36,563 bases of DNA. Origin: Deltaproteobacteria bacterium HGW-Deltaproteobacteria-22 (GTDB taxonomy: Bacteria > Myxococcota_A > Polyangia > HGW-17). The notes beneath the pieces were generated by a model. That model was not told where the DNA came from. It saw only the letters and a list, made by a program, of their open reading frames with translations, and made no database searches. Below, piece after piece: positions 15,347 to 32,553 of this stretch. Position numbers and translations under genes: made by a program. Each line of letters opens with the position of its first letter. Positions within the stretch are counted from its first letter, which is position 1. The DNA is taken from NCBI GenBank assembly GCA_002841825.1, contig PHAZ01000005.1, positions 1 to 36,563 on the forward strand. The letters run 5' to 3'.

Positions 15347-16503
15347 CGAAGGTAGCAGAGGGCGTCGTCCGTGCGGCGGCGGCAATCGAGGAAATCCGGC
15401 AGGGCCGCATGGTGGTGCTCACCGACCACGAGGATCGCGAGAACGAGGGTGATCTGGCCATGGCGGCCGAGCGGGTCCGTCCCGAGGACATCAACTTCAT
15501 GGCGACCCACGGCCGCGGCCTGATCTGCCTGACGATGATGCCCGACAAGGTGAAGCAACTGGGCCTGCGCATGATGGTCACCGACAACGAGAGCCCTTAC
15601 AACACAGCCTTCACGGTGTCCATCGAGGCCCGTGAGGGAGTGAGCACCGGCATCTCGGCCGCGGACCGGTCCCACACGATTCGCACCGCGATCGATCCTG
15701 CCTCGGACGCACGTCACGTCATCTCCCCCGGGCACGTCTTCCCGCTGCGCGCGCAGACCGGCGGCGTGCTGGTGCGGGCCGGACAGACCGAGGGTTCGGT
15801 CGACCTGGCGCGGCTGGCCGGGATGCTGCCTGCGGGCGTGATCTGCGAGATCATGAACGAGGACGGCTCGATGGCGCGCCACGACGACCTGCGCCGCTTC
15901 TGCGAGAAGCACAAGCTGGTGCAGTGCTCGATCTCGGATCTGGTGCAGTACCGCCTGCATCACGAGCCGCTGGTCAGCCTGTCGGCATCTTCACGGATCG
16001 AGATGACCTTCGAGGGCCAGACCCGCATGGCCGAGTTCTTCGTGTTCTCGACGCCGATCTCGCAGTTGGAGTTCCTGGCGATCCGGCTGGGCACCGTGAC
16101 CCCGGAAAAATCCGTCCTCGTGCGCATGCACCAGGGCTGCATGATCTCGGATCTGTTCAACCTGGGCGGCCCCAGCGGCAAACTGCAACTGGACCAGTCC
16201 CTGCGCCGGATCTTCTCGGAGGGCTGCGGTGTGCTCGTGTACATGCAGAACCAGAACGACTCGCTTGGAACCTGCTTCTCCCAGACGTTCGCCTCTTCCG
16301 GTAAGGAAGCGCCTTCGGGTGATTCGTCGGACGCGGCAGGTGGTGCTTCCGCCGCCCACCGCGACACCAACTATGGCCTGGGCGCACAGGTGTTGAAGTA
16401 CCTCAACGTCGGCCAGATGCGGCTGATGACCAACTCCGATCAGCGCTTTCACGGCATCCGGGCCTACGGGCTCGAGGTCGTGGAGCGGGTGCCTCTGGGA
16501 TGA
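15343..16503 (+). CDS. ribBX: Dihydroxybutanone-phosphate synthase with degenerate GTP cyclohydrolase II domain (RibBX-type)
   Basis: The product has 386 residues. The N-terminal RibB domain (1-205) is intact: [10 protein letters not shown] (29-38), HGRGLICL (56-63), [11 protein letters not shown] and [19 protein letters not shown]; it converts ribulose 5-phosphate to dihydroxybutanone phosphate. The C-terminal RibA-like domain (210-386) keeps the ends of the family ([20 protein letters not shown] and [11 protein letters not shown]) but the zinc site has changed: Cys266 remains, while the two cysteines expected about 11-13 residues later read Gly-Pro-Ser (276-278). The QEGRGIGL segment has become QNDSLGT (304-310) and a low-complexity Ser/Gly/Ala insertion follows. 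GTP cyclohydrolase activity is therefore unlikely, as in known RibBX variants. It overlaps ribE and the next gene by 4 nt each. Confidence 0.93.
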
Positions 16504-18317
16504 CCCAACTGAACCAGCGCCGCAAGGAGATCGTCGCCCGTACGGTCACCGTGGCCGAAGCGCTCTCCGCCATTCCCGCCGGTTCCACCGTGTTCGTCGG
16601 GACCGGGGCCGGGGAACCGCAGGGGCTGGTCGACTCCCTCGCGGACCTGGCGGTGAAAAAGAGCCTGCGGTTGCTGTTCGGTTTCTCCCTGCGCCGTCCC
16701 CCGAAGTTATCCTCGCCCGTGCCGATTTGCTCGTATCTTCATGTGGGGTACCGACAGTCCCGCGCCATGGAGGAGGGCAGCATCGACTGGCTTCCGGTGG
16801 AGTTTTCCAGCGTGCCGGCCCTGTTCGCCCGGCGGCGCATTCCCATCGATGTCGCGCTGGTCTCCGTAAGTCCCGGAGACGTCCATGGGCAGTTCAGCCT
16901 GGGCACCTCCGTGGACATCACCCGTGCGGCCGTGGAAGCCGCCTCGATGGTGATCGCCCAGATCAATCCGTTCGTGCCGCGCACCCATGGCCAGTCGTTC
17001 CTGGACTACCGGAAGATCCGGTTCTTCACACAGAAGGAGGAGCCCCTGCCGGAGGTCTTCGAGAAGAAGGACGACACCGAGGTCGAGGAGCAGATCGCCC
17101 GCAACGTGATCCGCGTGATCCCGGACGGGGCGACGCTCCAGCTCGGCTTTCCGCGCGTGCCGCGGCACCTGCTCTCCCGCATGTCCGAAAGGCACGACCT
17201 GGGAGTGCACAGCCTGCTGATCTCGGACTGGGTGATGGAGCTCGTCGAGAACGGCTCGGTCACCAACGCGCGCAAATCGTTCTCCCCTGGCAAGGTCGTG
17301 GCCGCCTGCGCGCTGGGCTCGCGCCGTTTCTACGACTATCTCAACGACTCCCCGGTGTTCGACTTCCAGACCGCCGACGTGGTGGCCGACCCGCAGGTGA
17401 TCGGAAAGAACCCGGGCTTCGTCAGCGTGCTCGACGCCGAATCCATGGACCTCCACGGGAGGGCCTGCTTCAGCAACAGCCCGTATTCCCGCCGGCTCAG
17501 CGCGTTTCTGGGCGCCGGCGGAAGCCAGCATGCCAACGGACAGACCGTGCTCGTGCTGTCCTCGCGGAACGCCTCCGGCGCCCCTGCGATCCGCCTTCAA
17601 CTCGAATCCGGCGAGATCGCCGTCCATGGCAGCGTGGCTGCCGACACCGTCGTGACCGAGCACGGCGTGGCGTTTCTGCGGGGGCGGACGATGCAGCAGC
17701 GCGCGCAGCAGCTCATCCCCCTGATGCACCCCGACGATCGCAGCGAGCTATGGTCTGTGGCGGTGGCACGCTCCTGGTTCTGTCCGGGCCTGGCGCGCCG
17801 GATGCCGGACCCCGTCTGGACGGTGCAGGGGCCGGAGGTCCCGCTGGATTCCTTTTCGGTCCGCACGGCCCACATCCAGGACTTCGAGGCGGCGCGCCGC
17901 TTTCATTACTCGCTGCCGCAGACGGATCTGAACCTGCGCTTCTTTGATCACGAGATGGACCTGGATAAATATTTACTGGATGCCCTTTCCCACACCGGAG
18001 CCCAGATGTTTTTTGCCCACAGGTTCGAGGCCGACGAGGAGACCATCCTCGGGGTCGCCGAGTGCCATGTCGATCCGGCCACGGGCGAAGGAGAGATCTC
18101 CCTGATCGCTCATCCGCTGTACCGCCGGCAAGGGGTGGGCCGGGGGCTTGTGTCGGCGATGACCGCCTGGGCGGCCTCCCATGGCGTCAAATGTCTGGGC
18201 GCCGAGGTACTGGTCTCCAATGTCCCCATGCTTCAACTGATGCGGCGCTGCGGCTGGACCCGGACGCCCCGGGACGGCAGCGAACTCTTCGAACTGGTGC
18301 TGCCTTTGGCGAAATGA
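16500..18317 (+). CDS. Acetyl-CoA hydrolase/CoA-transferase domain fused to a GNAT acetyltransferase
   Basis: The product has 605 residues. Residues 1-440 match the acetyl-CoA hydrolase/4-hydroxybutyrate CoA-transferase family (GTGAGEPQGLVDSLAD, HGQFSLGTSVDITRAA, FSPGKVVAACALGSRRFYDYL, VVTEHGVAFLRGRT). The motif that normally reads His-Thr-Glu-Met, with the catalytic glutamate, reads His-Ser-Leu-Leu here (237-240), so ordinary CoA transfer through a glutamyl thioester is doubtful. Residues 450-605 are a GNAT domain with motif A (HPLYRRQGVGRGL, 538-550). This fusion exists as a recognised family; the real substrate is unknown. Its ATG overlaps the ribBX stop by 4 nt, so it is translated with the riboflavin genes. 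Confidence 0.88.
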   Translation: MTQLNQRRKEIVARTVTVAEALSAIPAGSTVFVGTGAGEPQGLVDSLADLAVKKSLRLLFGFSLRRPPKLSSPVPICSYLHVGYRQSRAMEEGSIDWLPVEFSSVPALFARRRIPIDVALVSVSPGDVHGQFSLGTSVDITRAAVEAASMVIAQINPFVPRTHGQSFLDYRKIRFFTQKEEPLPEVFEKKDDTEVEEQIARNVIRVIPDGATLQLGFPRVPRHLLSRMSERHDLGVHSLLISDWVMELVENGSVTNARKSFSPGKVVAACALGSRRFYDYLNDSPVFDFQTADVVADPQVIGKNPGFVSVLDAESMDLHGRACFSNSPYSRRLSAFLGAGGSQHANGQTVLVLSSRNASGAPAIRLQLESGEIAVHGSVAADTVVTEHGVAFLRGRTMQQRAQQLIPLMHPDDRSELWSVAVARSWFCPGLARRMPDPVWTVQGPEVPLDSFSVRTAHIQDFEAARRFHYSLPQTDLNLRFFDHEMDLDKYLLDALSHTGAQMFFAHRFEADEETILGVAECHVDPATGEGEISLIAHPLYRRQGVGRGLVSAMTAWAASHGVKCLGAEVLVSNVPMLQLMRRCGWTRTPRDGSELFELVLPLAK

Positions 18318-21444: not shown

Positions 21445-24400
21445 TTACTTTCCGACGATACCGGTCGGGATCGAGAAGATCTCGACATAATAACGCAGCG
21501 CGGGGTTGCCCAGGATGTCGGGCACGGCGTGGAGGTTCACGCCGTAGGTGGAGATGTAGATCTTGGAGCCTTCGATCTTCATGTCGATATAGAAGCCCAC
21601 GGAACCCTCGTAGGGCTCCTCGTTGCCGCGCAGCACGCGGATGTCCCAGTCGGTCGTGCTGACCGCGCGGTCCAGGATGCCCAGGTACATCTCCTGGGAG
21701 GTCGCGTCCTGCCAGGCCAGGAAGATCTTGGACGAGGCGATGGCGATGCGGGCATCGGGGCCGAAGTAGTGCTGCACCGGCATGGGCAGGCCGTCGTTGT
21801 TGATGCCGTCCTCGGGACGGAAGCCGTCGTCGAGCAGCGTCTGGGCGACCTCGGAGGTCGTCAGGTTCAGGACGCTGTACCACAGGGAGCGCTGCAGGGA
21901 ATCCTGGTACACGAAGTGGATCAGGTTCTCGTCGGTGGGATCGACGGCCATGGTGCAGAACAGGCCCAGCGGCAGCTCGCCCTCGACGCCGCCGGCGACG
22001 ATCTGTGCCGGAGCGAAGGCGCCGCCGGCTTCGGCCTGATAGGAGAACTTCAGCGCGCCGGCGTACTGATCGAACCAGGCGACCGCGGCGCGTCCGTCAA
22101 CGAAACGGTCCAGCGCGATGAAATGTCCTGTGCCGTCGGGCCAGTCGGGCAGCGGGGCGTCGATGGCCGGCAGCGGATATTCCACGGTGTCGACGGTGAG
22201 GATGTCCCAGTCGGAGGCGGCCGTGGGGACCGGCACGCGGGCCTGGGCGAACCGCACCTCGGAGGCGAGGTTGGAGTTCACCGGCAGGTTGTTGACCGCA
22301 TAGGCCACGCCCGGGGCGCCGTCGGTGGTGCGGACGTCGAGCTTGTTGAAAAGGCCCGCGTTGCCGAGATCGCCGGACTCGGGATCTCCGGCATTGTCGA
22401 GGTCGTAGTGGTTCCAGGTGATCGTGTCCAGGCCCGTGGCGTCGAGGGTGTAGGAGATGCGCACGGAGCCGGTGGTGCGGTTGTGGTGCGCGATGATCGG
22501 GGTTCCGGTGCTCAGTTTCGCGACCGAGGTGTAGGCGCCCACATCGGTGCCCCTGGCGTTGATGCCGCCGCGGACCTCGGAGGAGGGGAGCACCACCGGA
22601 CCGTCGGGCACGCCGTCGACGAAGAACCAGTCCTCGGGGCGGATGCGCGCAGGCTCGTTCTCGGACGGGATGATCGTGGTGACCATCAGGTCGCCGTAGG
22701 TCGTGTTGTAGGAGCCCACCCAGGCGAGCTGGCCGATGACCGCGAAGGAGGCGTACGGGCCGGGGATGCCCCAGGGGATGTCGTTGACGCACTCGCACTG
22801 GCCGCCCATGCACAGCGGAATCTCGTTGTCGGGGCAGGACACGCCGGCGCAGTCATCGTCCCAGAAGCAGGTGGGCGTGTCGTTCTTCTTGTTGCCGCTA
22901 CCGTCGGCGCAGCCGATCAGGCCCATGGACACGACCGCGGCCAGCACCATCGCGGCCAGCGGAAAAAAACGGGGGCGGAACCTCCGCATGCGCGCGCCCA
23001 GGAGCACCGCACCCAGCAGCAGGAACAACGGCCAGGTGGAGCCCTTGCCGCGGGTGCCCGCGGAGGTGGCGCACATGAAGAATCCACCGGAACTGTCCTT
23101 CTCCACGGGAACGGCCAGGATCTGGTTGAGGTCCACAGCGGTCTCGGAGACGTTGCCGGCCTCGTCACGGAGGCGGACGATGAGCTCGCCGTCCCCGGCG
23201 TAGGCGCGGGCGGCCGACAGGGAGATGCTCTCCACGGCGGCCCAGGTGGTGAAGGAGCCCGAGCCCTTGCCGAAGGAGACCTCGATGGCTTCACGGCCGG
23301 AGACGAAGTCCACCGCGCCCGGGAAGAAGCGCTGGCCGGCCACGTAGGGGATCGCCTTCGGAGGCAGCGTGTCGAGGATGGCGGTCAGGATGACCGGCTC
23401 CAGGTTCAGGCTCTCGGGGGAGCCGGCGCGGCGTCCGCGGATCTTCACGATGTGTTTGCCCTGCAGGAACAACTGCAGATCGCCGATGACGAGCTGGTTG
23501 GTGCGGGCGAACGGCGTGTAGGCGCCGCCGTCGAGGCTGTACTGGTACTCGGCGGCTCCGGCGCCGTCGGTGGGAGTCAGGTCGATCACGAGCTCGGGGC
23601 GGGCGTCGTCGCGGCCCTGCAGCGTGGCGCGCAGGCGCTCGGGGGCGTAGGTGCGGGCAGTCTTCAGGGAGGCCTCGAAGGTGTGCGGGAGCACGGCGCT
23701 CTTCTGGCCGGGCAGCACGGACACGATCTTGGCGATGATCAGGGCCGCGTCGGCGGTGACCGTGGGTTTGAACTCCAGGTGCGAGAGACGGACCACGCGC
23801 CACACCAGGTAGTCACCGTTCTGGTTCATCTTGGTGATGTCGTAGGTGGGCATCGGGATCGGCTGCAGGGCACCACTCATCATCGGCATGATCATGCCCA
23901 GGATGCTCGGGAAGATCGCGGCTACGTCCTCGGGGTTCTCGCGGATCAGGTCGGCGTTGGTGACGCGGGCGGTGATCTGGGAGGCGTCCACCGGACGCAG
24001 CACCGGCATCACCGTCACGTTGTTGGTGAGCGGATCGACGCCTTCCTCGAGGTCGATCTGGAGGTGCATGTCCAATGCCATGGTGAGGGCGCGGGCATAG
24101 CGGCCGTTGACGAACGGATACACATCGATCTGGAAGTCGCGCATGAACACGTCGATGAGCGGGGTCTCGGTGCCAGTGCCCTGGCCAATGGTGAACTCCA
24201 GCGCGGTCTGGGGCCGGATGACCAGTTGCAGCGGGGCGTCACCCACGGTCGGATCGATCAGTTCGGCCAGCGACGGGATCATCACCGAGAAGGCGCCGAC
24301 TTTCAGCAGAGGGCTCTGCTCGGTGCCCACGGTCAGGCACAGCGTGCCGCTGTTGACCAGGTGGAAGCCCAGCAGGTTCAGGAAGTCCTTGGTCAGGGCG

Positions 24401-25620
24401 ATGCCCACGTCCGCGGGCGTGTTGTCGCCGAACTTCAGGTAGGCCTGGTCGAAGGAGCCGGAGAACTCCTGGATGATCTGGCGCGTGAAGGTCTTCAGGC
24501 GGTCGGCGGAGGCGCCGGAGACGCCGGGAACGAGGGACAGGCCCTGCTGATTGAAATCAAAGGTCGCGATGGGGGGCACGCACCGGGCGCCCTGGGTGTG
24601 CTCGGCGACGTTGAACTCGTTCTTGCTCTCGGCGCGGGTGAGCACGTCGGAGTCGGAGTTGAAGCCGGTGATGATGCCCGCCGTGATGCCGCGGTTCTTG
24701 ATGTCGACGAAGCCGCCGGAGACCATCTTCAGTTCCAGCATGGAGTCGACGCCCATGAAGCCGGCGTCGGCCATGAAGGCGCCGACGTTCATCTGGCCCT
24801 CGAGGCCCATCGGATCCGGGAAGAGTTTGTCGATGGTGGGCTGCAGCAGCGGGATGACGACCTCGTTGGCGATGAATTCGACGATGGCGTTGCCCACGAA
24901 GGCCTGGACCATCTCGATGTACTGACCGATGTTCTCCAGGATCAAGGCGTTGAGGAAGTCCTCCAAGATCGGGATGCAGTTCTCCAGGGAGATGCCCAGG
25001 CCGCCCAGATCGATGTCGGTGATGGAGTTGATGTCCATGCGCATCTGGCCGTCGGAGGGACGGGTGCGCAGTCCCAGGGCGATGGTGCCCTCGAAGGCCT
25101 GGTTGTAGAAGCCGACGGCCACCTGACACTGATTCGTGATGTTGTTCCCCATGAAGAACACATCGATGTCGAAGCCGAGGTAGATGTTGGCCTCCAGATC
25201 CACCCAGATTTCATCGCAGGCGGACTCGGCGAAGATGCCCTCGCGGCACTGGTCGATGTTGTTGCTGTTCTGGGTCACGTCCACGACGTCGAAGTCGAGA
25301 TCGACGCGGGAGATGTCCACGCCGCAGCCGAGGCTGCAGAACGCGATGCCGTACTGGCGGTCCGAGGAGCCGACCCAGAACTCGGGGATGAACGACAGGT
25401 GGCCGAACTCGCCCTCTACGAACTGGGGCAGGATCGTCTTGATGGTCTCGAACCCGTCCTCGGTGATGCGGATCTGCAGACCGTTCTCAACCACCTGGGA
25501 AGGCGGGATCGTGGCCGGCGGCGGTTCGATCTGGGAGCAGCCACCCCCTCCTGTGCAGGCTGGAAGAGCGGAGAATAAAAAAAGCAGGGAAAAGGCAATG
25601 GAAGTAGAGAACCGGTTCAT
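21445..25620 (-). CDS. Large lipoprotein, apparent in-frame fusion of two secreted proteins
   Basis: The product has 1391 residues from ATG 25620 (AGGAGG 10 nt upstream; a good promoter just before). The N-terminus is a lipoprotein signal with lipobox LPAC (Cys22). Residues 23-845 are a mixed alpha/beta extracellular region with no family I can name, ending in beta-sandwich-like sequence. At about 845-880 comes Gly-Gly, a Cys, a hydrophobic helix and an Arg cluster, a GlyGly/MYXO-CTERM-like sorting tail. Directly in frame, residues 878-904 form a second lipoprotein signal (lipobox LIGC, Cys904), followed by a short Cys-rich segment and a beta-propeller-like domain to 1391. Either this is a natural fusion, or a stop was lost, or the sequence contains an error. 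Confidence 0.78.
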   Translation of the reverse strand: MNRFSTSIAFSLLFLFSALPACTGGGGCSQIEPPPATIPPSQVVENGLQIRITEDGFETIKTILPQFVEGEFGHLSFIPEFWVGSSDRQYGIAFCSLGCGVDISRVDLDFDVVDVTQNSNNIDQCREGIFAESACDEIWVDLEANIYLGFDIDVFFMGNNITNQCQVAVGFYNQAFEGTIALGLRTRPSDGQMRMDINSITDIDLGGLGISLENCIPILEDFLNALILENIGQYIEMVQAFVGNAIVEFIANEVVIPLLQPTIDKLFPDPMGLEGQMNVGAFMADAGFMGVDSMLELKMVSGGFVDIKNRGITAGIITGFNSDSDVLTRAESKNEFNVAEHTQGARCVPPIATFDFNQQGLSLVPGVSGASADRLKTFTRQIIQEFSGSFDQAYLKFGDNTPADVGIALTKDFLNLLGFHLVNSGTLCLTVGTEQSPLLKVGAFSVMIPSLAELIDPTVGDAPLQLVIRPQTALEFTIGQGTGTETPLIDVFMRDFQIDVYPFVNGRYARALTMALDMHLQIDLEEGVDPLTNNVTVMPVLRPVDASQITARVTNADLIRENPEDVAAIFPSILGMIMPMMSGALQPIPMPTYDITKMNQNGDYLVWRVVRLSHLEFKPTVTADAALIIAKIVSVLPGQKSAVLPHTFEASLKTARTYAPERLRATLQGRDDARPELVIDLTPTDGAGAAEYQYSLDGGAYTPFARTNQLVIGDLQLFLQGKHIVKIRGRRAGSPESLNLEPVILTAILDTLPPKAIPYVAGQRFFPGAVDFVSGREAIEVSFGKGSGSFTTWAAVESISLSAARAYAGDGELIVRLRDEAGNVSETAVDLNQILAVPVEKDSSGGFFMCATSAGTRGKGSTWPLFLLLGAVLLGARMRRFRPRFFPLAAMVLAAVVSMGLIGCADGSGNKKNDTPTCFWDDDCAGVSCPDNEIPLCMGGQCECVNDIPWGIPGPYASFAVIGQLAWVGSYNTTYGDLMVTTIIPSENEPARIRPEDWFFVDGVPDGPVVLPSSEVRGGINARGTDVGAYTSVAKLSTGTPIIAHHNRTTGSVRISYTLDATGLDTITWNHYDLDNAGDPESGDLGNAGLFNKLDVRTTDGAPGVAYAVNNLPVNSNLASEVRFAQARVPVPTAASDWDILTVDTVEYPLPAIDAPLPDWPDGTGHFIALDRFVDGRAAVAWFDQYAGALKFSYQAEAGGAFAPAQIVAGGVEGELPLGLFCTMAVDPTDENLIHFVYQDSLQRSLWYSVLNLTTSEVAQTLLDDGFRPEDGINNDGLPMPVQHYFGPDARIAIASSKIFLAWQDATSQEMYLGILDRAVSTTDWDIRVLRGNEEPYEGSVGFYIDMKIEGSKIYISTYGVNLHAVPDILGNPALRYYVEIFSIPTGIVGK

Positions 25621-25650
25621 GGGAAGGTCGCCTCCTGAAAAAGCAAGCTG

Positions 25651-25679
25651 ATCATAGTGTAGCAGGCCTTTTTCGTCAA
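25651..25679 (-). promoter_or_regulatory. Strong sigma-70 promoter of the large lipoprotein gene
   Basis: On the minus strand TTGACG (25679-25674) and TATGAT (25656-25651) have a 17-nt spacer, a near-consensus match. Transcription would start near 25644, giving a 24-nt leader with AGGAGG before ATG 25620. Confidence 0.7.
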
Positions 25680-25703
25680 GGTATCCTCCCTGTGATTTTT
25701 TTC

Positions 25704-25732
25704 TGGAAAACCGCCATTCCATCCCGTATACA
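25704..25732 (+). promoter_or_regulatory. Possible promoter for a leaderless transcript
   Basis: TATACA (25727-25732) lies only 9 nt before the ATG at 25742, with a poor -35 (TGGAAA, 25704-25709). No Shine-Dalgarno is visible before the ATG. Both facts fit a leaderless or nearly leaderless mRNA. Confidence 0.35.
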
Positions 25733-25741
25733 CTTGCGCCT

Positions 25742-28700
25742 ATGACTCTGAAATCTTCTCGCCCCGTTCCGTTGTCGCTGATTTCCATCCTGCTTTTCTT
25801 CTCCGGTGCCGCCGGTCTGGTGTATGAGGTCATCTGGACCCGCATCCTGCACTACACCTTCGGCAACACCGAGATGGCCGCCGCCACGGTGCTGGCGACC
25901 TTCATGGGCGGCATGGCCCTGGGCGGTGCCCTGGGCGGCAAGTTCGCCCCGCGGATCAAGCATCCGGTGCTGGCCTACGGTATCCTCGAGGCTGTCATTG
26001 CTGTGTATGGCCTGCTGTTCACACCCTTGCTGTACAAGATGGATTTCATTTACCTGCTGACGGGTCCTGACCCCGGACCGACGCTCATGATGTTCATCCG
26101 CTTTGTCGTCGGTGGCCTGCTGATCCTGGTTCCGACCGTGGCCATGGGTGCCACGCTCCCGATCCTGGTACATGGCGCCGTGGAGAAGGAACACCCTGGC
26201 AAGAGCCTCGGCGTTCTGTACTTCATCAACACGCTGGGCGCGGTGGCCGGCACCATGCTGTCGGGCTTCATCCTGATTCCAATGGTCGGCCTGGATGTGG
26301 CCGTGTACCTGGCCGTCATGATGGGGCTGTTCGTCTTCCTCGGGGCCGTGTTCATCGAGTACCGCCTGCGCCCGGTTCCCGGGGAGGAGTTGATGGAGCA
26401 GAAGGTCGAGCCCACCGATGATGCCCCGGCCCCGCCCGCGTTCGAGGAGAACTTCTCCCCCTTCGCGCTGAAATGGGGCGCCTCCGCGGCCGTGGCCTTC
26501 GCCTTCGTCTGCGGCTTCATCAGCCTGTCCAACGAGATCCTGTGGTTCCGCCTGCTGGGCATCCTCATGGACGGCACCATCTATGGATTTTCCGCCCTGC
26601 TTTCGGCCTACCTCGCGGGTCTGGCCTTCGGTTCCCTGCTGATCTCCCGGAGGCTCGACAAGTCGCGTGATTTATGGGCATTATTTACAAAATTACAAAT
26701 CGGCGCGGCCGTCGGCGCGATCCTGACGATCCTGATCCTGCCGCTGATGCCGTTTTTAATCTCTGGCTACATCGCCTCGGAGCAGAAGTCGCCCGGCTCG
26801 GTGTTCGCGCTGAAGTTGTTCCTGGTGTTCCTGTCCATCGCGACCCCCACGTTCTTCTACGGCGCATCCTTCCCGGTGCTCGCGCGGCTTGCGTCGGTTC
26901 GCCGCTCCCTGAGCACGGCGGTGGGCAACACGTACGCGATGAACACCGTGGGCTGCATCCTCGGTGCGGGCCTGACCGGCCTGATCCTGATCCCGACGGT
27001 GAAGAACCTCAACGCCCTACTTCAGTTCATGATTTTCTTCTCGATTCTGGTGGCCCTGGTATCGGCCATGTTCGCCCGCGTGGAGCCCGACGCCGAGGGA
27101 GGCTTCTCCTGGCTGTCGAAGTTCCGCACCGACGGGCGGCTGCGGCTTCTGACAGGCGCCACCCTGGTGTTCCTGGGCATGGTGATCATCGATCCGAACG
27201 TCAACGTCATCCGGCTGGTCAACTCCCGGTACTCGGTCGAGGATTACTCCAACACCATCGGCTCCCGTGTGAAGTCGCTGTACGGTGATCCCAACGACCT
27301 GAAGAACCTGCTGTTCCAGGCCGAGGGCGCCGTGACCGTCGTCACCGTGCACAAGACCAAGGAGGGCGGTCTCCGCCTGCGCAACAACGGCCTCAACGAG
27401 GCCTTCCATGCCGCAACGGATCCGCACTACGCCGAGGAGATCCTGTACCTGGGCATGCTCCCGTACTTCCTGCATCCCAACCCCGAGAAGGTGCTGCTGA
27501 TCGGTCTGGGCGGCGGCGGCACGCTGGACATGCTCTCCCACGGCAACTTCAAGCAGATCGAGGTCGCCGAGCTCGAGCCCGAGGTGGTCAAGGCCTCGCG
27601 TTTCATGTTCGGCAACCGGCCGCATCCGCTGGACAATCCCAACGTGCGCCTGAGGCTGGACGACGGCCGCAACGCTCTGGCGAGGCACGCCCGCGCCAAC
27701 CCGCACACCTACGACATCGTGGTGTCGCAGCCGTCGCATCCGTGGCTCTCCGGTGCCTCGAACCTGTACACCCTGGAGCACTTCAGGATTGTCCGCAAGA
27801 ACCTGAAGCCCGGCGGCATGCTGTGCCAGTGGGTGAACCTGTTCCGCATGAACGAGGTGGGCTTCCGCAGCCTGATGGCAGCCTTCGTGGGCGTCTTCCC
27901 GGACGGGCACGTGTTCCAGGTCGACGAGAATTCGGTCTTCCTGATCGGCGTCAACGGCGAGTTCAAGGTGGACCCGGACATCATCAAGAAGCACCTGAAG
28001 GAAGAGAACGTCAAACCGATCGTGAAATCCTACGGCATCACGCTCAACCGCATCCTGCGCATGTACCTGTTCCCGATGGACGTCGCCCGCATGCTCGGCA
28101 GGGGCTCGGTGGTCAACTCCGACCGTCATCCGGTCATCGAGACGGTGCTGCCGTGGGTCGGCCACAACACCATGTTCCGCGTGCAGGACGTGCTCAATCG
28201 TCACAAGCAGGAGTTCGGACTGTCCTACCTTTCCATGAAGCAGGGGTCGGCCTCGGTCACCCTGCTGCGGGAGTTCGCCGATTACCTGATCTCCCGGATC
28301 GACCTGAGCACCCAGGAGATCACGAAGGTCAAGCAGCGCGCCGACGAGATCCTGAAACTGACCCGGCACAACGAGGTCCGGCTGCTGGATGAACGGCACC
28401 GGATCGACGCGAGCCTGTATGAGAAGCTCGGGCACCTCGAGAAGGCCGTCGAGGCCATGGGCCGCATCGAGACCCCCTCGCTCTCGGATCACATGAAGAC
28501 AGCCGGCTGGCTGCTCCAGATGGAGAAGCCGGCCCTGGCCCTGCCGCGGCTTCTGGCGATGCTCCTGGTGATGGAGCGCCCGCTGCACACGGGCACCGCA
28601 GTCCTGGCCGCCCGCTGGCTCCCCGGTGTGGAGGCGGACATGAAGATGCAGCCAGGCACGATCAAGTCAGGCGTCGTTCACCAGCTCGGCCGTGCGCTCT

Positions 28701-30177: not shown

Positions 30178-32553
30178 TCAAGGATTGACGCACCAAACGC
30201 CGAGGTCCCCGTTTCCGAGACTCGGGTCACCCATAAAAGAACCGGTAATTGAACCAGTCATGCAGACAGTTCCCGAAGGGTCTTTGCCCAAACCGAAAAT
30301 CATGTCGTACCCTGTCGAACCGAACTGACGCACGGACTCCATGGCCCCTGTATCCACACGCAGTTTGAAGAGAAAGGCGTCGTTTCCGCCGGCGCTGGTG
30401 TTGCCGGGGAACGTCCCGGAGGTGGAGCCTCCCACAAACAGACTGTTGCCGCCGGCCCAGAGGATCCGGAAGGCCTCGTCGGACCCGGAGGTGCCGAACT
30501 GCTGTGTCCAGGTGCGGGTGAGGTTGGACGGGTCGAGCTTGGCCACGAACAGGTCCTTGTTGCCTAAACCCGGCGTGCCCGTGAGGGCCCCCTCGGTCAC
30601 GCCCGTGACGTAGAGGTGGGTCGTGTCGAAGACGAGGCTGTATCCCTGGTCGACCGCCGTGGTGCCGAACTGTTGGGAGGCCTCCCGCGTGCCGGTGAGG
30701 GAACAGCGCACGACAAAAATATCAAACGATCCGGCCGAGGTTCCGTTGCCTGCCAGGGAACCGTTGGTGCTGCCGACGATGAACAGTTTGTTCGAGGTGG
30801 CAAACAACTGCATGTCCGTCGCATAGTCCTGGTTCGCGGTGCCGAACATCGTGCCCCACGAATAGGTTCCCGTCGGGGTGAACCGGGAGAGGAAGACGTC
30901 GTTTTGTCCCAGGTTGACCAGTTCCATGCCTCCGCTGCTGCCGGAGGGGATGGTACCCTCGGTATAGCCGGTGACGTAGATGTTGCCGGAGCCGTCCCTG
31001 GCCAGGGCACGTCCCTCCTCGTTGAAGGCGCTGCCGAACTGCCTGTGCCAGATCAGGGCGCCGTTGGAGGCGTTGAGCTTGATCAGCGCGATGTCGGAGC
31101 CGCCCAGGGCCGTCTCGCCCGACAGTTGTCCGGTGACATAGCCGGTGACGTAGACCGCGCCGCTCGGATCCACGAGGATTCCGCGTCCGACGTCGTTGCC
31201 GGAGGTGCCCAGTTGGGCGACCCATTGACGGACACCGTCGACGTTCCACTTCACGACGACGATGTCGGAGCCACCGTAGGAGATTGCCCCCATCGTGCCG
31301 CTGGTGACGCCCACCGCATACACGTTGCCGCTGGCGTCGATGGCCATGTCCCGGGCGTATTCCGCAGCGTCGGTGCCTTCCAGGCGCGAGGGGTCGCAGG
31401 CGTCGGTGTCGAAGAGGCAGGCGTCCGAGCAGGCCAGGGTTCCCCCGAAGAAACCGCGTGCCCGGCAACGGGATCCCGCAAGTTCGGTGGCGTCGCACTC
31501 CTCACCGAAGGCGCCCTGGATGACCAGGTCACCGCAGCGCCCCGCGGCGGCGCACGGCCCATGGTCGAACTCGCAGGCGGCGGTGCAGGCAAGGGTCCCG
31601 CCGTAGTAGCCCAGCGTCTCGCAGGTGCGGCCCGCCAGCTCGATGCCGTCGCACTCCTCACCCTCGGTGTCCTGGATGGAAGCATCACCGCACCGCCCCG
31701 ATTCAGCGCACGGTTCGAGGTTCAGCAGGCAATCACCATCGCAGGCGAGGGTCCCGCCGTAGTAACCCAGCGACAGGCAGGTCTGTCCGTCAAGGCTGGC
31801 ACCGTCGCACTCCTCACCGCGGGACTCCTGGATCGCGTCGTCGCCGCAGAGGCCCTCGAGCAGGCAGGGCGCGAGGTCGAGGGTGCAGGAGGCGGTGCAG
31901 GCGAGGTCTCCGCCATAGTAGCCCAGCAGCTCGCAGGTCTGTCCGTCGAGGCTTGCGCCGTCACAGATCTCGCCGCGGTCTTTCTGAAGCACGCCGTCGC
32001 CGCAGCGGCCCGTGGTCATGCAGTCTTCGATGTCCAGGGTGCAGTCGCCGTTGCAGGCGAGGGTTCCACCGTAATAACCGATCGAGGCGCAGGTCTGGCC
32101 ATCGAGGTTTTCACCGTCGCAGGCCTCGGCCAGATCGACCGTGCCGTTGCCGCAGGCCTGCCCGGAGCAGTCGGAGGTGTCGAGGGTGCAGTCGCCGTTG
32201 CAGGCCAGCGTGCCGCCGGAGAAGCCGATCGACGTGCAGGTCTGTCCGTCGAGATCGGCCCCGTCGCAGAGTTCGGGGCTCTCGATGGTGCCGTTGCCGC
32301 AGTCGGCGACGCCGCCAGAGCACTGGCTGCGGTCGAACCGGCAGGAGTCCGAGCAGGCGAGGGTGCCCGACTCGTAGCCCAGCAGTTCGCAGGTCTGTCC
32401 GGTCAGGTCCTCCCCGTCGCAGTCCTCTCCGGTTTCCAGTTGGCCGTTGCCACAGGACGTCTGGGTCGCTTTCAGGCCTGTGGTGTCGAAGTTGCAGTGG
32501 GTCAGGAACAGTGTGACCAAAAGAAGAATTGAATAACAGGACATTTTCCGCAT
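30178..32553 (-). CDS. Lipoprotein with seven six-cysteine repeats and a seven-blade SBBP propeller
   Basis: The product has 791 residues. The N-terminus is lipoprotein-like but the lipobox is LTHC (Cys20), with an unusual His before the Cys. Residues 34-386 are seven tandem repeats of about 50 residues, each with six cysteines and the consensus CGNG...CDG..LDGQTC...GYYGGTLAC...C...C; their first cysteines are at 34, 85, 134, 184, 236, 288 and 340. Residues 391-791 are seven SBBP-type repeats (FGTSG...DxSGNVYVTG...GG.D..L.K), which would close a seven-bladed beta-propeller. It is probably anchored to the outer membrane, facing outward. ATG 32553 has GAGGTG 7 nt upstream; an ATG at 32544 would shorten it by three residues. 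Confidence 0.88.
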   Translation of the reverse strand: MRKMSCYSILLLVTLFLTHCNFDTTGLKATQTSCGNGQLETGEDCDGEDLTGQTCELLGYESGTLACSDSCRFDRSQCSGGVADCGNGTIESPELCDGADLDGQTCTSIGFSGGTLACNGDCTLDTSDCSGQACGNGTVDLAEACDGENLDGQTCASIGYYGGTLACNGDCTLDIEDCMTTGRCGDGVLQKDRGEICDGASLDGQTCELLGYYGGDLACTASCTLDLAPCLLEGLCGDDAIQESRGEECDGASLDGQTCLSLGYYGGTLACDGDCLLNLEPCAESGRCGDASIQDTEGEECDGIELAGRTCETLGYYGGTLACTAACEFDHGPCAAAGRCGDLVIQGAFGEECDATELAGSRCRARGFFGGTLACSDACLFDTDACDPSRLEGTDAAEYARDMAIDASGNVYAVGVTSGTMGAISYGGSDIVVVKWNVDGVRQWVAQLGTSGNDVGRGILVDPSGAVYVTGYVTGQLSGETALGGSDIALIKLNASNGALIWHRQFGSAFNEEGRALARDGSGNIYVTGYTEGTIPSGSSGGMELVNLGQNDVFLSRFTPTGTYSWGTMFGTANQDYATDMQLFATSNKLFIVGSTNGSLAGNGTSAGSFDIFVVRCSLTGTREASQQFGTTAVDQGYSLVFDTTHLYVTGVTEGALTGTPGLGNKDLFVAKLDPSNLTRTWTQQFGTSGSDEAFRILWAGGNSLFVGGSTSGTFPGNTSAGGNDAFLFKLRVDTGAMESVRQFGSTGYDMIFGLGKDPSGTVCMTGSITGSFMGDPSLGNGDLGVWCVNP

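Follow-up and report, generated by a model that had tools for sequence, protein, structure and literature searches.

A conserved reading frame of Myxococcota that runs a MYXO-CTERM-like tag into a second lipoprotein signal, a likely precursor of two lipoproteins

The window considered here, the whole 36,563-nucleotide stretch of contig PHAZ01000005.1, contains a long open reading frame with two export signals set back to back in its interior. According to the preliminary description, a C-terminal sorting tail leads in frame, with no stop codon in between, into the signal peptide of a second lipoprotein, and a recent gene fusion, a readthrough arrangement or an error in the sequence was offered as the explanation. 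The arrangement itself is plain in the translation. The question is whether the locus encodes one protein, two proteins made from one chain, or two genes merged by a fault.

The open frame lies on the minus strand at 21445-25845 and has 1466 amino acids. Its likely start is Met76 of the frame, at window position 25620, because the same-genus orthologues align from this Met (MKRFSTS...), they and the family orthologues begin here with a clean lipoprotein signal, and no conserved N-terminus is found further upstream. Given this start, the number assigned earlier to the second lipobox cysteine, Cys904, is exact. The gene and its parts are as follows.

21445..25620, minus strand: whole precursor ORF, 1391 residues from the likely start Met (25618-25620) plus the stop codon; the frame is open upstream to 25845.
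25555..25620, minus strand: signal peptide 1 with lipobox Cys22 (MNRFSTSIAFSLLFLFSALPA-C); a lipobox-like N-terminal signal occurs in all 78 of the 78 members tested.
23632..25551, minus strand: predicted BPI-like double-TULIP region, residues 24 to ~663, from the AlphaFold2 model, PDB matches and weak Pfam TULIP hits.
23107..23631, minus strand: predicted Ig/FN3-like β domains, residues ~664-838, from the strand pattern of the model, weak PKD/Big hits and FN3-type matches; boundaries approximate.
22969..23088, minus strand: internal MYXO-CTERM-like tag, with GG845-846, Cys850 (23071-23073), a helix at residues 863-876 and an Arg cluster at residues 877-884.
22909..22992, minus strand: second lipoprotein signal, with n-region RMRRFRPR (common to the Arg cluster of the tag), h-region and lipobox LIG-Cys904 (22909-22911).
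22963..22969, minus strand: run of seven T (A on the plus strand) inside signal 2, identical in two same-genus genomes (G001 and G002).
21448..22908, minus strand: C-terminal product, residues 905-1391, a Cys-rich segment and then a predicted β-propeller, from the AlphaFold2 model and PDB matches.

Nearly the whole length of the gene is also covered on the opposite strand by a 1349-residue open frame (21529-25578, plus strand), which is probably a by-product of high G+C.

A survey of the class, covering 318 genomes in 152 genera, found the family in 202 genomes and 104 genera, and a survey of the phylum Myxococcota found it in 210 of the 379 genomes sampled. The contigs were searched for relatives with a five-sequence alignment; those that have a name belong to Myxococcota, under labels such as Deltaproteobacteria, Polyangiaceae, Kofleriaceae and Nannocystineae. 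In 80 single-ORF members fetched from the class, the junction has the order Cys, helix, Arg cluster, helix and lipobox Cys; 79 of these members were parsed automatically, the remaining one being clipped by the extraction window. Among 20 loci from outside the class, 18 have the joined junction, one is split and one is ended by the end of its contig. The single ORF is also kept in 18 aligned relatives, with identity down to 25%. One further locus (L073, on contig C50 of G057) appears joined at the junction, and a little beyond the second lipobox its reading frame changes, through either a frameshift or an assembly error.

Read from the likely start Met, the order of elements across the junction is SSGG-FFM-C850-ATSAGTRGKGST-WPLFLLLGAVLLGA-RMRRFRPR-FFPLAAMVLAAVVSMGLIG-C904, with no stop codon. 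Its first part resembles the tripartite Cys, helix and Arg tag of the MYXO-CTERM/myxosortase system (TIGR03901). The short motif with an invariant Cys is represented in the window by Cys850 after GGFFM, and in the relatives mostly by GC or GCGC (GC.C in 55 of 79, with canonical GCGC common). A transmembrane helix and an Arg-rich cluster follow (WPLFLLLGAVLLGA-RMRRFRPR). The difference lies in the position of the tag: a canonical MYXO-CTERM ends its protein within a few residues, whereas here ~507 residues come after it. The tail of the window scores 16.3 bits against the MYXO-CTERM model, under the cut-off of 20; six of the 18 aligned relatives match at E<=1, the best at 1.6e-6, and many orthologues are below the cut-off. 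The tail had been likened to either GlyGly-CTERM or MYXO-CTERM, and only the second likeness holds. The GlyGly-CTERM (rhombosortase) identity was ruled out because the window has no NCBIfam match to it; the sole match at E<=1 is to invert_tail (NF058595), at 19-22 bits against a cut-off of 37, and weak matches of this kind also occur in unrelated control genomes.

The second part of the junction follows the lipoprotein pattern, with the basic n-region RMRRFRPR, the h-region FFPLAAMVLAAVVSMG and the lipobox LIG-C904. The residue preceding the second lipobox Cys is Gly, Ala or Ser in 76 of 79 members, and position -3 is relaxed, often without Leu. In the 18-sequence alignment, which extends down to 25% identity, Cys904 is invariant and Cys850 is at least 90% conserved. 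The complete motif of Cys, hydrophobic stretch, Arg, hydrophobic stretch and [GAS]Cys is found at the junction in 76 of the 79 parsed members and elsewhere in five of the 79, which is more than chance. A plain hydropathy scan for helices confined to the junction was unclean, as other helices in the ORF were called in 58 of 79 members. Nonsynonymous change in signal 2 equals or exceeds the synonymous rate (the changes are few and the result is indicative only), and both mature parts are strongly constrained (dN/dS <0.1). Free evolution of the signal next to constrained mature parts fits the pattern of a discarded signal peptide.

The halves of the protein also exist as separate neighboring genes, in four genomes. 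The stop and start codons of the two genes overlap in three of these, as GTGATGA in G024, ATGA in G049 and GTGA in G230, and the genes are 20 nt apart in G484. In all four, the first gene ends after the Arg cluster and the next begins with the second signal peptide. Stand-alone N-terminal halves (L065, L066, L067 and L152) carry the tag and stop directly after its Arg cluster, and stand-alone C-terminal halves (L075, L169, L193, L199 and others) begin with a lipoprotein signal of their own. Thus the covalent link is dispensable for both halves, and either signal can function by itself. Six of the stand-alone propeller relatives (L193, L204, L199, L203, L196 and L197), each with its own lipoprotein signal, have a longer Cys-rich N-terminal region, and no BPI-like partner was seen just upstream of them.

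In a tree of class members, for which the midpoint root is an assumption, the split forms are nested within the joined forms or are sister to them, and the joined form is the commonest. One tip labelled joined (L144) was ended by the end of its contig and may be either joined or split. Distribution and position in the tree together indicate that the joined form is old, and on these sequence comparisons the arrangement is regarded as ancient across Myxococcota.

Whole-protein searches of Pfam, PHROGs and PDB sequences gave nothing useful, and the nature of the two halves is suggested by predicted structures. The AlphaFold2 model of the N-terminal half is of moderate confidence (pLDDT 77). The five PDB structures that it matches best are of BPI, LBP and CETP, with E-values from 8e-18 to 1e-14 and by-target TM-scores of 0.40-0.57. 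The Pfam TULIP families give weak sequence-profile hits, none of the Pfam TULIP models, DUF4403 included, being significant, and sequence similarity between the two presumed TULIP units is undetectable. The half is predicted to consist of a BPI-like double TULIP and, after it, Ig-like domains, and may represent a new bacterial TULIP family that is widespread in Myxococcota. Bacterial TULIP proteins are known, and BPI-like DUF4403 is among them (PMC6791001). The N-terminal half would share the predicted two-barrel BPI fold with BPI, LBP, CETP and the DUF4403 proteins, but differs from them in that it is a predicted lipoprotein and has predicted Ig-like domains as well as a sorting tag. The C-terminal half is modelled with higher scores (pLDDT 90, pTM 0.88) as a β-propeller, and its best PDB matches are bacterial propeller lectins (PHL/PLL), glycoside hydrolases and sialidases. 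A role of the BPI-like part in lipid binding or transfer is a further step, taken from the fold only. It is a reasonable guess that a putative lipid carrier is paired with a putative glycan-binding propeller at the cell surface.

The genome that contains the window (G000) has at least 30 MYXO-CTERM loci over the model cut-off, and in each of the 30 that were fetched the protein ends no more than 17 residues after the tag; this organism thus makes use of the tag. The genome also encodes a CPBP protease of the myxosortase family (Mrt_core 92 bits, just under the cut-off of 100), about four or five Lgt homologs (contigs C142, C204, C140, C99 and C287) and two LspA homologs (C104 and C25). Cleavage of a MYXO-CTERM substrate by MrtX has been demonstrated in E. 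coli (PMC11980579). We know of no MYXO-CTERM acyltransferase identified so far; the extra copies of Lgt could be candidates for this function.

The likely explanation of the locus is an ancient polyprotein that carries two lipoproteins and is cut by myxosortase and signal peptidase II. The topology, both cleavages, the lipidation and the surface location that we infer would be as follows. The ribosome would make one chain of 1391 residues, the export of which would be started by signal peptide 1, with Lgt and LspA lipidating and cutting it at Cys22. The N-terminal part, comprising the BPI-like double TULIP and the Ig-like domains, would fold on the outer side of the inner membrane. At the MYXO-CTERM helix in the interior of the chain, transfer would then stop and leave the Arg cluster in the cytoplasm, where the cluster would double as the n-region of signal 2, so that the chain would re-enter the translocon and the propeller part would be exported to the same side. 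A protease of the myxosortase family would cut after Cys850, Lgt and LspA would process Cys904, and the hairpin of residues 851-903 would be discarded. Two separately anchored proteins, of ~90 kDa (BPI-like) and ~52 kDa (β-propeller), would be released in a 1:1 ratio, their destination being probably the outer membrane or the cell surface. In its full form, the proposal that a single cytoplasmic Arg loop serves, phylum-wide, both as the end of a myxosortase tag and as the start of a lipoprotein signal, and that cleavage by myxosortase and LspA yields, in exactly 1:1 ratio, a BPI-like lipid carrier that is doubly anchored and a propeller lipoprotein, has a little better than an even chance of being correct. 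The tag below its cut-off, the relaxed lipoboxes and the myxosortase candidate just under the Mrt_core cut-off were counted against a cut precursor.

The main rival to a cut polyprotein is a protein that is never cut, in which two helices form a permanent membrane hairpin, an anchor of the 'lipo-invert' type, that ties the BPI-like domain to the propeller, both lying on one side of the membrane. The topology is consistent with this, and the junction resembles the 'lipo-invert' C-terminal anchoring domain (invert_tail) in having a helix, an Arg-rich loop, a second helix and a lipobox Cys in one chain, although invert_tail sits at the C-terminus of its proteins and only a short tail comes after its Cys. 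The only 'lipo-invert' member examined, the above-cut-off L226 (ORF from base 433), has a helix, a KRRSLRR loop, a helix, a lipobox Cys and a short tail. It has no Gly-Cys tag before helix 1. A literature search for 'lipo-invert' found no paper. The phylum-wide retention of the joined form also speaks for the uncut hairpin: such long retention could mean that the link itself matters, which would count against a cut precursor. Furthermore, the two-gene forms could be explained by simple assembly of the halves and are no proof that the joined form is cut. Nevertheless, a permanent hairpin leaves unexplained the joint conservation of the lipobox Cys and of the Gly-Cys motif ahead of helix 1, as well as the natural splits exactly at the junction and the existence of stand-alone halves, and the relaxed selection on helix 2 is at odds with it. 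An uncut protein is considered rather unlikely.

Distinctly less likely is the use of one signal only, for example cleavage by LspA at Cys904, which would give two proteins, the first of them keeping the MYXO-CTERM helix as its anchor, or the reverse. The sub-cut-off MYXO-CTERM match of the window agrees with such a scheme, as does the finding that M. xanthus without myxosortase still exports some TraA (PMC11980579), but both cysteines are conserved throughout the family.

Internal initiation at Met878, the codon of which is the ATG at window position 22989, would give two proteins from the long ORF. The preliminary description had proposed this ATG as the start of a second lipoprotein, and a plausible signal peptide does begin there; moreover, the overlapping start codons of the two-gene relatives are at the same place. 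The start codon itself is not conserved, however: in the stretch from the Arg cluster to signal 2, ATG is absent from 45 of 79 members and all of ATG, GTG and TTG are absent from 12 of 79, the same-genus genome G001 has a Leu codon, CTG, in place of Met878, and no Shine-Dalgarno-like purine run precedes the ATG in the window. Internal initiation is thus a very improbable explanation of the locus, and an internal start was rejected as a general mechanism for its poor conservation. Initiation at Met878 is unlikely to be a general route; one translated precursor is the simplest account.

A sequencing error or frameshift at the homopolymer of seven T within the junction, the readthrough of a stop codon, or a private gene fusion of recent date can practically be dismissed, because the run and the reading frame are identical in both same-genus genomes (at 97% and 95% identity), the frame is also preserved in orthologues that lack the run, none of the ~98 single-ORF members across the phylum has a stop codon at the junction that could be read through, and the split forms are nested in the joined ones or sister to them. 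The preliminary description had named orthologues that share a single ORF and a conserved junction as decisive against an error or readthrough, and such orthologues do exist. Its idea of a fusion survives, but not the recent date, which the phylum-wide distribution of the joined form and its prevalence in the tree rule out; two separate genes, which it had suggested looking for, exist in the four genomes with split halves.

The closest published parallel is MXAN_5598 of Myxococcus xanthus. According to Guo, Haft and Wall (2025, PMC11980579), ORFs with an internal MYXO-CTERM are rare, and MXAN_5598 is proposed to be a fusion, with its N-terminal part reaching the surface through processing. The tag is in the middle of the ORF in both cases, but the second part of MXAN_5598 is an outer-membrane β-barrel with an OmpA domain, whereas here a signal peptide of its own marks it as a lipoprotein. 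Furthermore, MXAN_5598 is an atypical, rare case, and the present arrangement is conserved over a phylum. The split forms have a counterpart in the traA-traB operon of M. xanthus, where the end of a MYXO-CTERM gene overlaps the next gene, also for an envelope protein, by 4 bases (PMC3325183). The products are unlike those described here, being a PA14/Cys-rich receptor and an OmpA protein encoded by two separate ORFs.

New features of the locus are the back-to-back signals, their conservation throughout the phylum, the natural split controls and the pair of domains, with MXAN_5598 and the 'lipo-invert' hairpin as precedents. To our knowledge, bacterial polyproteins cut at back-to-back export signals have rarely been described. 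The FbcH-type cytochrome b/c1 precursor of Bradyrhizobium is a bacterial precursor that is divided into two products at a signal sequence within the chain, but the cut is of the signal peptidase I type, the respiratory complex is unrelated, and neither lipidation nor a sorting tag is involved. A phylum-wide case with natural split controls offers a ready test of the relation that MYXO-CTERM lipidation and myxosortase cleavage have to the Lgt/LspA pathway. A predicted BPI-like lipid-binding half anchored in the envelope of a sterol-producing phylum would be of interest for outer-membrane lipid traffic.

Two other genes of the window may be mentioned. A fusion of an acetyl-CoA hydrolase/transferase with a GNAT acetyltransferase domain is encoded at 16500-18314 on the plus strand, and a 791-residue protein with SBBP β-propeller repeats at 30181-32553 on the minus strand.
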